Source of the DNA: Pseudomonadota bacterium
GTDB lineage: Bacteria > Pseudomonadota > Alphaproteobacteria > Dongiales > Dongiaceae
Reading direction: 5' to 3'
Assembly (NCBI GenBank): GCA_016183985.1
Contig: JACPDN010000011.1
Coordinates: forward strand, 248,001 to 312,000
Length of the DNA: 64,000 nt
Below are positions 50,056 to 52,595 of the stretch, in pieces. The notes under the pieces were generated by a model that saw nothing but the letters and a program-made list of their open reading frames with translations, made no database searches and had not been told where the DNA came from. The translations under genes were made by a program, and so were the position numbers. How positions within the stretch are numbered: the first letter of the stretch is position 1; each line of letters begins with the position of its first letter.

Positions 50056-50499
50056 TTAGTGGCGTGGCCCCAGGGCGCGCCATCCCTCGGCCCATTGCTT
50101 GCGCTGTTCCGGCGTCAGCTCGGCCGCGATCTCGGCGAGCCCGACCTGGGCATGGTGCAGCAATTTTCCGGCCGATTGCTCGAGTTCGGCCAATGCCGCA
50201 TCAAGCGCCGCCGGATCAAAAGGCTCCGCCGCCAGCGCATCGGCCACATGAAGGCGTAGTTCCCGCATCTTCTCTTTTTCGTCGCGGAACTCCGGACCGT
50301 GCGCCTTTAGCTTGTCACGGATGACCGACTTCAGCTCTGGCGGCACCGTCGCCATGACCATGCCGCCTTTGCCTTCAGGACCGCCCATGGGCCCGTGCAT
50401 GCGGCCGGCAACCATGCCCGCCAGCAGAAAGAGATTGAGGCAGACTGAGATGATCAATCCCGCGGCCAACCACTTTGACTTTGTGCCCGGAATGGTCAT
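50056..50499 (-). CDS. Periplasmic heavy-metal-sensor protein, CnrX/Spy-like
   Basis: This 147-residue protein has an N-terminal membrane anchor (WLAAGLIISVCLNLFLLAGM) and a periplasmic helical domain of the CpxP/Spy/CnrX (Metal_resist) group. The C-terminal LTPEQRKQW is typical. Potential metal ligands are Met and His rich: M34-H35 and M38 after the anchor, M47/M49, H67, H84, and H115-H116. In Cupriavidus, CnrX (148 residues) senses Ni/Co in the periplasm and controls release of the sigma factor CnrH through CnrY. Here the gene is last in a sigma/anti-sigma/sensor operon, its ATG sharing a base with the stop of the anti-sigma gene (TGATG). The metal specificity is not readable. Confidence 0.75.
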   Translation of the reverse strand: MTIPGTKSKWLAAGLIISVCLNLFLLAGMVAGRMHGPMGGPEGKGGMVMATVPPELKSVIRDKLKAHGPEFRDEKEKMRELRLHVADALAAEPFDPAALDAALAELEQSAGKLLHHAQVGLAEIAAELTPEQRKQWAEGWRALGPRH

Positions 50500-50783
50500 C
50501 AGAATTCCCCGACGTCATTGGCGGCGTAGAGCACCGACGCCACATCCAGATCCTGCCCGTCGCTGAGGTTTGCATTCCCCCAGCCCATGGCAAACCCCAT
50601 CAGCAGCGACAGGATCGCCGCACTTGCCGCCATGCGCGCCGGTGACAGAAATGCAGTCAGCCAGAAGCGGCCGCGAGCAGCCGGCGCATCAATAAGCTCT
50701 ACCAGATGCGCCGGTGCGGCCTCGATCGTCAAAGCTCGCCCCAGCAGGGCTTCAAACTCGTCATCCCGCATGTGTTTCGTCAT
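50499..50783 (-). CDS. Short membrane anti-sigma factor, CnrY-like
   Basis: This 94-residue protein has a cytoplasmic N-terminal helix region (DDEFEALLGRALTIEAAPAH), one transmembrane segment at about residues 45-68 (ARMAASAAILSLLMGFAMGW) and a short periplasmic tail. Size and topology match CnrY (95 residues), the membrane anti-sigma factor that holds CnrH and is controlled by CnrX. It overlaps the sigma gene by ATGA and the sensor gene by one base, so all three are translationally coupled. A strong AAGGAACGGAAAA precedes the start. The role is inferred from context and topology, not from sequence similarity. Confidence 0.65.
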   Translation of the reverse strand: MTKHMRDDEFEALLGRALTIEAAPAHLVELIDAPAARGRFWLTAFLSPARMAASAAILSLLMGFAMGWGNANLSDGQDLDVASVLYAANDVGEF

Positions 50784-51355
50784 TTTTCCGTTCCTTCCAG
50801 CCTGGCGCGGATATCTTTCTTTGCGCGCACCAGCAGCGATTCATACGCTTTGACCGAAATCTCCATCGTCGCCGCAGCCTCGGCATTGCTGAGGCCCAGC
50901 GTGTAGCAGAGGGCCATCGCCTCCCGTTGCCGTTCCGGCAGAGCCGCCATGGCGTTACGCACCAGCGCTTCCTGTTCCGCCGCCATCATCTGCGACTCCA
51001 CGCCGGGAGCGGGATCGGCAAGCGGCAGGTCCGGGTCCAATTGCTCGGCGCGCGGCTTTCGGCGCGCATCGATACATAGATTCATCGTCACCCGGTAAAG
51101 CCAGGTGGAGAACTTCGCCTCACCCGGCTGCCAGCTGGCGGCCTTCCGCCAGGCCCGCGTAAAAGCTTCCTGCGCCGCATCTTCGGCATCTGCCCGCGAG
51201 CCCGTCACACGCAGTGCCAAGGAGAAGACGCGATTGAGGTGCCGTTCGCGCAGCTTTGCGAATGCCGACCGGTCGCCATCCGCGACGCCCCGCAACAAGC
51301 GATCGTCATCGTCTGATTGCGGGCCATCGTCATTGGCCGGCTGCCCGTTTCCCAT
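50780..51355 (-). CDS. ECF-type RNA polymerase sigma factor
   Basis: With the ATG at 51355 this is a 191-residue ECF sigma factor (the same size as CnrH). Region 2 is VFSLALRVTGSRADAEDAAQEA and FTRAWRKAASW, then FSTWLYRVTMNLCIDARRK. Region 4 is ALPERQREAMALCYTLGLSN and AEAAATMEISVKAYESLLVRAKK. The start is uncertain: the ATG has no ribosome binding site, whereas a TTG at 51382 has GGGAG five bases upstream. Starts further up (51460, 51472) are less likely. Being first in an operon with a CnrY-like anti-sigma and a CnrX-like sensor, it should respond to a periplasmic metal or envelope signal and activate its own operon. Confidence 0.9.
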   Translation of the reverse strand: MGNGQPANDDGPQSDDDDRLLRGVADGDRSAFAKLRERHLNRVFSLALRVTGSRADAEDAAQEAFTRAWRKAASWQPGEAKFSTWLYRVTMNLCIDARRKPRAEQLDPDLPLADPAPGVESQMMAAEQEALVRNAMAALPERQREAMALCYTLGLSNAEAAATMEISVKAYESLLVRAKKDIRARLEGTEK

Positions 51356-51395
51356 TTGGCGATCGCGCGTGGGTGATATCAAGACAACTCCCGCC

Positions 51396-51436
51396 GTTCC
51401 GGCCCTGGTCCCGGTACTTATCCGGGGTCCAGGGCC
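51396..51436 (-). promoter_or_regulatory. Strong hairpin followed by an ECF-like GGAAC box upstream of the sigma gene
   Basis: On the minus strand GGCCCTGG...CCAGGGCC with an inner CCCGG/CCGGG stem form a 13-base-pair hairpin with loop ATAAGTA. GGAAC, the common ECF -35 core, follows at once. A start site 30-35 bases on would lie just before the ATG at 51355, consistent with autoregulation. The hairpin has no T-run, so it is a poor terminator for the preceding EF-hand gene. Confidence 0.3.
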
Positions 51437-51495
51437 GTGTTCGGTGGCAATTATGGCCATGCCATCGCGCATCTTGCCAGTCTCTTGGTCCGTCC

Positions 51496-52125
51496 TTACG
51501 GCTGAACCGGCGGCTCGTCGTCATTTATGTGGCGCTTGCGCGGCTGCGGCACCTCATCCTTCGCGATCTTGCCGTCCTTGTTCTTGTCGAAGCGCGTGAA
51601 CATCTTTTCACCCTGCGCCGACCATTCCGCGACCGAGATCTTGCCGTCCTTGTCGGTATCGAGGCGAGCCATCCGGTCTTTGCCATCAGGCATGCCGCGG
51701 TCATGTGCCTTGCGCAGCGCCGCCATTTCCTCCGTCGTCACGGCGCCGTCCTTGTTGGCATCCGCATCGGCGAAATTCATATGGCCCTTGCCCGGCCATT
51801 CTGCCTCGCTGAGCTTACCGTCACCATCCTTGTCGAAGCGCTTGATCATCTTGGCGGCCATGTCGCCCTTCTGCGCCTCAAACTTGGCGCGCTGGGCCTC
51901 GTGGAATGCCTTCAATTCGTCCGCGCTGGCAAAGCCGTCGCCATTGGCATCGATGGCCTTGAAACGGGCGGCACCCTGGGCATCGAACTCCGTGCGGTCG
52001 ATGGCGCCGTCCTTGTTGGTATCGGCATCCTGCCACAGGCCGAAATCGGCAAAAGCCGGTGCCGCAGCACCCAGCATCAGGCCGACGACACCGCCCAACA
52101 GTATGAGACGATTGGAATTTTTCAT
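51496..52125 (-). CDS. Exported six-EF-hand calcium-binding-type protein
   Basis: This 209-residue protein has a Sec signal peptide (LILLGGVVGLMLGAAAPAFA-DF). Six EF-hand-type loops follow: DADTNKDGAIDRTEF, DANGDGFASADEL, DKDGDGKLSEAEW, DADANKDGAVTTEEM, DTDKDGKISVAEW and DKNKDGKIAKDEV, each with the D-x-D/N-x-D-G pattern. It should bind divalent cations (Ca2+ or others) in the periplasm. The tail is Lys/Arg then acidic. GGAG eight bases upstream of the ATG is the ribosome binding site and lies inside a long hairpin (52129-52177). It is 140 bases ahead of the sigma-factor operon, which suggests a functional link. Confidence 0.88.
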   Translation of the reverse strand: MKNSNRLILLGGVVGLMLGAAAPAFADFGLWQDADTNKDGAIDRTEFDAQGAARFKAIDANGDGFASADELKAFHEAQRAKFEAQKGDMAAKMIKRFDKDGDGKLSEAEWPGKGHMNFADADANKDGAVTTEEMAALRKAHDRGMPDGKDRMARLDTDKDGKISVAEWSAQGEKMFTRFDKNKDGKIAKDEVPQPRKRHINDDEPPVQP

Positions 52126-52128
52126 TAC

Positions 52129-52177
52129 TGTAACTCCGTCATGTCGGGCTGCCTTGCAGCCCCTTCATGACGTTACA
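52129..52177 (-). promoter_or_regulatory. Ribosome-binding-site-containing hairpin in the EF-hand mRNA leader
   Basis: On the minus strand three stacked helices form one long stem-loop: TGTAAC with GTTACA, GTCATG with CATGAC, and GGGCTGC with GCAGCCC around an AAG loop. Together they give 19 base pairs in 49 bases. The gene's GGAG ribosome binding site falls at a 3-base bulge (GGA) and the first stem base, and the ATG is 3 bases beyond the stem. The structure can therefore block initiation. It could alternatively be a DNA dyad operator (TGTAAC...GTTACA). No T-run follows, so it is not a standard terminator. Confidence 0.55.
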
Positions 52178-52229
52178 CGGCACCGGGTGGCAGACCCTGC
52201 GCAAGATCCACTGACAAGGATCGAGGGGG

Positions 52230-52595
52230 TTACATTTCCCCGGACGTCAGGGTTCCATCCCCGTCGGCATCCAAGCGCGAGAAGAGATCGTTGCCGCTCT
52301 CCATGTATTCGTCGAGGCCGATCGACCCATTGCCGTCGGTATCGGCACCTTCAAACAAAGGCGAGCCGCCATGCGCCATGGCCTCGGCCATCTCTTGCGA
52401 CGACAAAGCGAGGTCGCCATTGGTGTCGGCCTGGTTGAAGAAGCTCATCCGCGCCGCATCGAAATCGATCGCCGACATCCCGCTTTCGGCACCGATCACA
52501 CCAGGCATGAAGGAATCGTCCTGCGCCAATGCAGCGCCTGACAACATCAGGAGGCCCGAAGCGAGCCCGACACAGCGCCACGCCATCTTAGGCAT
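52230..52595 (-). CDS. Exported EF-hand protein
   Basis: This 121-residue protein has a signal peptide ([19 protein letters not shown]). Three EF-hand-like loops follow: [26 protein letters not shown] and [13 protein letters not shown], the last at the very C-terminus. The first loop has Leu in place of the usual Gly, so it is degenerate. The start at 52595 overlaps the accA 3' end by 8 bases, making accA and this gene probably co-transcribed; a second ATG at 52586 is possible. It resembles the larger EF-hand protein 104 bases downstream and may be a shorter relative. Confidence 0.82.

Follow-up and report, generated by a model that had tools for sequence, protein, structure and literature searches.

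On the minus strand of the analysed window (the whole 64-kb stretch of DNA), an EF-hand protein gene is followed downstream by an ECF sigma factor gene, a short open reading frame in the anti-sigma position and a gene for a Metal_resist protein (Table 1). A smaller EF-hand gene precedes it on the same strand. Directly behind accA, these two EF-hand genes form a tandem, the first of them overlapping the end of accA; such a tandem is also seen at the loci of congeners. Two NCBIfam models, lanmodulin and XopAW, match the larger EF-hand protein with scores well below their cut-offs, which probably reflect general EF-hand similarity. The subject of this analysis is the leader between the two EF-hand genes, which contains a hairpin. 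A second palindrome, GGCCCTGG...CCAGGGCC, is found at 51400-51437 on the same strand, where it separates the EF-hand gene from the conserved region of the sigma gene and probably falls within the first codons of the latter. Its stem is kept in relatives with changed sequence (GGTCCTGATCTGCGGATCAGGACC, GGCCCTGGTCCACGGACCAGGGCC).

Table 1. Positions of genes, promoter elements and leader features in the window
Feature	Position	Strand	Remarks
Metal_resist (PF13801) protein gene	50056-50499	-	3.5e-24
Short ORF, anti-sigma position	50499-50783	-	Without family match; role by position only
ECF sigma factor gene	50780-51472	-	Pfam Sigma70_r2 and r4_2; NCBIfam PRK05602 above cut-off, sigma70-ECF superfamily
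EF-hand protein gene	51496-52125	-	209 aa; Pfam EF-hand_5, 1.4e-30; N-terminus signal-peptide-like
GTTACA, proposed outer 3' arm	52129-52134	-	Unsupported as paired element; not conserved
Shine-Dalgarno GGAG	52134-52137	-	Flush with P1 base; invariant in congeners; 8 nt to ATG
Helix P1, 3' arm CATGACG	52137-52143	-	Sequence, covariation, RNAalifold
Helix P2, 3' arm GCAGCCC	52146-52152	-	Sequence, covariation, RNAalifold
Helix P2, 5' arm GGGCTGC	52156-52162	-	Partner 52146-52152; both sides changed at 2 pairs in congeners
Helix P1, 5' arm CGTCATG	52166-52172	-	Partner 52137-52143; both sides changed at 3 of 7 pairs among congeners
Putative transcription start	52169-52171	-	By cabp analogy; uncertain, about 52171 to 52165
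-10-like element CGTGTA	52174-52179	-	CGTGTAA invariant in six congeners; CGTTAG in neighbouring genus, identical spacing
-35-like element CGCAGGGT, ECF-type promoter	52194-52201	-	Invariant in six congeners including the window
Small EF-hand gene upstream of leader	52230-52595	-	Same strand; end 57 nt before the 5' foot of the hairpin

The promoter of the EF-hand gene

The hairpin is preceded by a conserved promoter-like sequence with the layout CGCAGGGT, 14 nt, CGTGTA (52201-52174). Among congeners, the spacing between the two elements is fixed and the sequence of the spacer is variable. Counterparts exist outside the genus: in a neighbouring genus of the family, CGCAGGGTTT and CGTTAG precede the EF-hand gene, the -35 block being CGCAGGGW, and CGACGGAA and CGTT are the equivalent blocks in further alphaproteobacteria. 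In 299 genomes of Caulobacteraceae, CGCGACGGA-N15-CGTTCA has about 60 matches, as opposed to a single match of the reversed control, and among the loci read it mostly precedes EF-hand genes. A promoter of this kind has been mapped in Caulobacter vibrioides (-35 GGAAA, 13 nt, -10 CGTTCA) in front of cabp, an EF-hand gene adjoining the ECF sigma gene sigV (PMC13171946). Judged by its sequence, the window promoter is of the same type as both, and it has the marks of the cabp-sigV arrangement: its -35 and -10 blocks keep a fixed distance from each other and precede an EF-hand gene that has an ECF sigma gene next to it.

Individual spellings have a narrower distribution. The exact form of the neighbouring genus, GCAGGGTTT-N12-CGTTA, gave 7 matches in 385 genomes of the class, none of them clearly before an EF-hand gene; since the reversed control gave about 7, this spelling is not widespread. 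A loose version of the promoter, scanned in the order, did not rise far above background, and most of the distant EF-hand relatives inspected on genome contigs lack a promoter of the window type.

Structure and conservation of the leader hairpin

The earlier note had described a single 19-bp stem-loop made of three inverted repeats at 52129-52177. All three repeats are present. The minus strand reads, in order, TGTAAC (52177-52172), GTCATG (52171-52166), AAG, GGGCTGC (52162-52156), AAG, GCAGCCC (52152-52146), GA, CATGAC (52143-52138), GGA, GTTACA (52134-52129), GTA and the ATG at 52125. In the minimum-free-energy fold of this RNA, GTCATG/CATGAC and GGGCTGC/GCAGCCC form, whereas TGTAAC/GTTACA is absent. 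What stands is an inner stem of 13-14 bp (52172-52137), consisting of two helices, P1 and P2. The outer pairing fails in comparison as well: it is broken in four relatives (G006, G003, G001 and G005), and the counterparts of GTTACA in relatives read GTAGCG, GTTACC, GATACT, GGTCGC and GTACGT. Moreover, TGTAAC overlaps the conserved -10 element of the ECF-type promoter. We therefore rejected a single 19-bp stem, the outer 6 bp of which are not conserved and overlap the -10 box. The proposed placement of GGAG at the only bulge cannot be kept either, as it needs the outer stem, and the AAG/GA internal loop also separates the two inner helices. P1/P2 pairing takes only the first base of GGAG. One predicted fold (52137-52109) joins GGAGTT, at the Shine-Dalgarno, to AATTCC in codons 3-5, a pairing that is weaker or absent in relatives. 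A leaderless micro-ORF starting from ATGAAGGGG was also considered and rejected, being absent in G001 and G005.

The stability of the hairpin is by itself unremarkable in this GC-rich window. On the two strands of the 64 kb, about 46 segments of equal length (34 nt) have folds of equal or greater stability, and the z-score is -1.9 for a 121-nt context. For the leader alone it is -4.6, and none of 200 shuffles matched its stability. What marks the inner stem as non-random is comparison with relatives rather than stability. Orthologous leaders were obtained from five other species of the genus, giving six congeners with the window, and five congeners were aligned with MAFFT by sequence only, without reference to structure. 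In this alignment, the inner structure of 14 pairs keeps 95.7% of pair cells, compared with 87.9% in shuffles, and five pairs are changed on both sides. The covariation score of 0.443 was reached by none of 500 shuffles, the structure slid by 1-3 columns is only 29-58% paired, and unconstrained RNAalifold yields the same 14 pairs. The compensatory changes in homologous leaders that the earlier note had proposed to look for were thus found for the inner stem.

The neighbouring genus has the same two-helix layout in another sequence, for example TTTGAC-GGTCG-TTTT-CGACC-GTCAAA. When it is added in an alignment fitted manually to the structure, and thereby biased in its favour, up to five standard pair types per position occur in P1 and three in P2, and all 40 P2 cells are paired. 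Leaders were also scanned mechanically for a two-part hairpin whose start lies 2-5 nt after the -10, with dinucleotide shuffles as the control. Such a hairpin, of differing sequence, occurs in 10 of the 11 leaders of the family, where 1.1 were expected. The excess is modest, and suggestive only, beyond the family: 4 of 11 leaders in other lineages (0.8 expected) and 7 of 27 in Caulobacteraceae (4.4 expected). Family leaders differ in the number of nucleotides between stem and ATG (7-17), while the start of the stem stays tied to the promoter, at a fixed position relative to the -10. The loops vary too (AAG, AAGG, GAGG, CGTC, TTTT, CATT, CTAT).

That the hairpin is a chance palindrome of a GC-rich genome, as the 46 or so equally stable folds might suggest, is scarcely credible in view of its occurrence in 10 of 11 family leaders and of the compensatory changes, and is contradicted by the covariation among the five congeners. 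A dispersed palindromic repeat (REP-like) or mobile palindrome was rejected because there is one copy per genome. As DNA, the window hairpin has one match in its genome. A covariance model finds one strong match, at the EF-hand leader, in each of the five genomes used to build it and, across 17 genomes of the order, no further convincing match. It does not reach the sixth congener, G005, whose leader has diverged too far.

The earlier note had also offered a DNA dyad operator, which would serve a dimeric repressor overlapping the start site. The inverted repeat does sit at the initiation region, and close congeners retain CGTCATG/CATGACG. However, in other relatives both arms change in step, with pairing preserved, to unrelated CGTTGTG/CGCAACG, TTTGAC/GTCAAA or CTGG/CCAG, so that no half-site is kept. 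Together with the two helices, offset by an internal loop, and the single copy in the genome, this makes an operator very improbable.

The presumed transcript start and the possible role of the stem

The start of the cabp transcript has been placed by 5' RACE 40 nt upstream of the ATG (PMC13171946). The analogy drawn here rests on three orthologous Caulobacter leaders, C. vibrioides itself being absent from the sampled genomes; with 42-44 nt between CGTTCA and ATG in these leaders, the start would be at nucleotides 3-5 after the -10. A start downstream of the stem had been named in the earlier note as evidence against it; by the cabp analogy, the start would instead lie at the stem foot, with an uncertainty of several nucleotides. 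By canonical ECF spacing, transcription begins at nucleotides 6-9 after the -10. Such a start would fall inside the 5' arm, leaving mainly P2 and a short 5' tail, and this conflict between the cabp analogy and general ECF spacing is the main weakness of our interpretation. A pairing profile, folded from the promoter spacer onward with no start presumed, gives a pairing probability of 0.15 at nucleotide 1 after the -10 and 0.7-0.99 at nucleotides 2-6; the end of the -10 box is under-paired and the helix sets in 2-4 nt after it. Since P1 pairs that covary between genera occupy nucleotides 5-8, the start should lie at or before about nucleotide 5, if the constraint is on RNA. By analogy, then, the stem apparently begins where the message does.

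The structure and conservation of the inner stem are established, and its function is what we infer. In our evenly balanced judgement, it is the 5'-terminal stem-loop of an ECF-controlled EF-hand/sigma/metal-resistance operon, stabilising the mRNA and insulating the ribosome site. The EF-hand leader would be transcribed from the ECF-type promoter (52201-52174), which the ECF sigma factor of the next downstream gene probably recognises, and the RNA would begin at or very near the foot of the P1/P2 stem-loop, with the Shine-Dalgarno directly 3' of the stem. On one hand, the stem-loop would take away the single-stranded 5' end that RppH and RNase E need; on the other hand, it would keep the ribosome site free of pairing with the leader. 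The putative outcome is an ECF-induced mRNA that is both stable and translatable. Both enzymes require single-stranded 5' ends, and in E. coli, 5'-terminal stem-loops block them and stabilise mRNA (PMC3997798). A paired shape held at a constant position at the presumed transcript start, with other features variable, fits such a protective structure, one that would also hold the leader in a defined fold. As a counterpoint, three Caulobacter leaders with the same promoter (L185, L186 and L206) have no comparable hairpin, so the hairpin is not essential to the circuit.

The chief rival is translational control: a stem covering or adjoining the ribosome site would keep translation low, and a protein, a small RNA, temperature or co-transcriptional timing would open it. 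In the window, GGAG is flush with P1, and GGAGTT also pairs with codons 3-5 in one fold of the leader. The Shine-Dalgarno lies within the stem base in G005 (CTCC/GGAG), G012 (TCTTTC/GAAAGG) and several Caulobacteraceae (TCTCCT/AGGAGA), which suggests translational control in place of protection. However, most leaders of the window's family have it outside the stem, P1/P2 is predicted to be too stable to melt at physiological temperature, and the unconserved loops present no recognisable site for a protein or small RNA. We regard this explanation as somewhat unlikely overall, though it may hold for those lineages where the Shine-Dalgarno is enclosed. The Caulobacteraceae leaders L161-L201 carry a conserved ATCTCCTGACAGGG right after the -10, complementary (CTCC) to the Shine-Dalgarno of the EF-hand genes, so that it may sit enclosed in a stem there as well. 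A broader proposal, which we consider rather doubtful, is a second, post-transcriptional layer: a leader hairpin of free sequence would accompany ECF/EF-hand (calcium-related) operons across several alphaproteobacterial families, enclosing the Shine-Dalgarno in some lineages, and a factor that depends on calcium or envelope stress might open it.

The hairpin might also belong to RNA that reads through from accA and the small EF-hand genes upstream, serving in its processing or guarding its 3' end, or it might insulate transcription between the two units. The upstream gene, on the same strand, does end just 57 nt before the hairpin, and read-through RNA would carry the full stem. Yet terminator features were not found, and in different genera the start of the helix follows the -10 box, which leaves this explanation improbable. 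The hairpin had been noted to be no typical terminator for want of a T-run on its 3' side, and this is borne out: an intrinsic terminator or attenuator, defined by a GC stem with a T-run, was rejected, and no terminator-like site was found.

The idea of a functional RNA structure next to the ribosome binding site gains support from the compensatory changes, whereas its more specific forms, a switch, thermosensor or cation-responsive element, do not. A point in favour of a riboswitch or thermosensor is the position upstream of a calcium-binding protein gene, and EGTA does induce the related Caulobacter cabp, but it does so at transcription, by SigV (PMC13171946), and the sigma factor accounts for the known inducer effect. 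The element is only about 35 nt long, with unconserved loops and no conserved unpaired core of the ligand-binding type. P1/P2 is predicted to stay formed up to 55-65 C and sequesters no more of GGAG than its first base. An Rfam search of the window returned only two tRNAs above threshold, the best match in the hairpin region reaching 18.4 bits of the 45 required, on the other strand. Taken together, these observations make such a sensor highly improbable.

Relation to known systems

Overall, the analysis tells a real covarying RNA element apart from a look-alike extension made by the promoter box. It also ties a conserved leader structure to an EF-hand/ECF sigma circuit that is widespread but has been little studied. 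Should this structure set mRNA lifetime or translation, transcription-only models of this calcium-related stress circuit would be incomplete. No Rfam family and no paper describing the leader hairpin were found, in a literature search that was thin on subscription journals.

RNA thermometers of the FourU and ROSE types have a stem near the Shine-Dalgarno or including it. The window hairpin is likewise close to the Shine-Dalgarno, and in some relatives includes it; unlike them, it has no weak U-rich anti-Shine-Dalgarno pairing, its stem is very stable, and it has no Rfam match. With cabp-sigV of Caulobacter vibrioides, the locus has in common a secreted EF-hand protein beside an ECF sigma factor, the promoter type and a short leader (about 40 nt in cabp). 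It differs in that the three Caulobacter leaders examined have no hairpin and sigV there has its own intragenic promoter; by term search, the paper mentions neither a hairpin nor an untranslated region (PMC13171946). With the 5'-terminal stabilising stem-loops of E. coli papA and model constructs (PMC3997798), the window leader would share a 5' end that is structured and leaves few or no nucleotides unpaired, with the ribosome site behind it. It differs from them in that its gene is ECF-controlled and its stem abuts the Shine-Dalgarno. The leader hairpin is a new instance of a kind of element that is already known.
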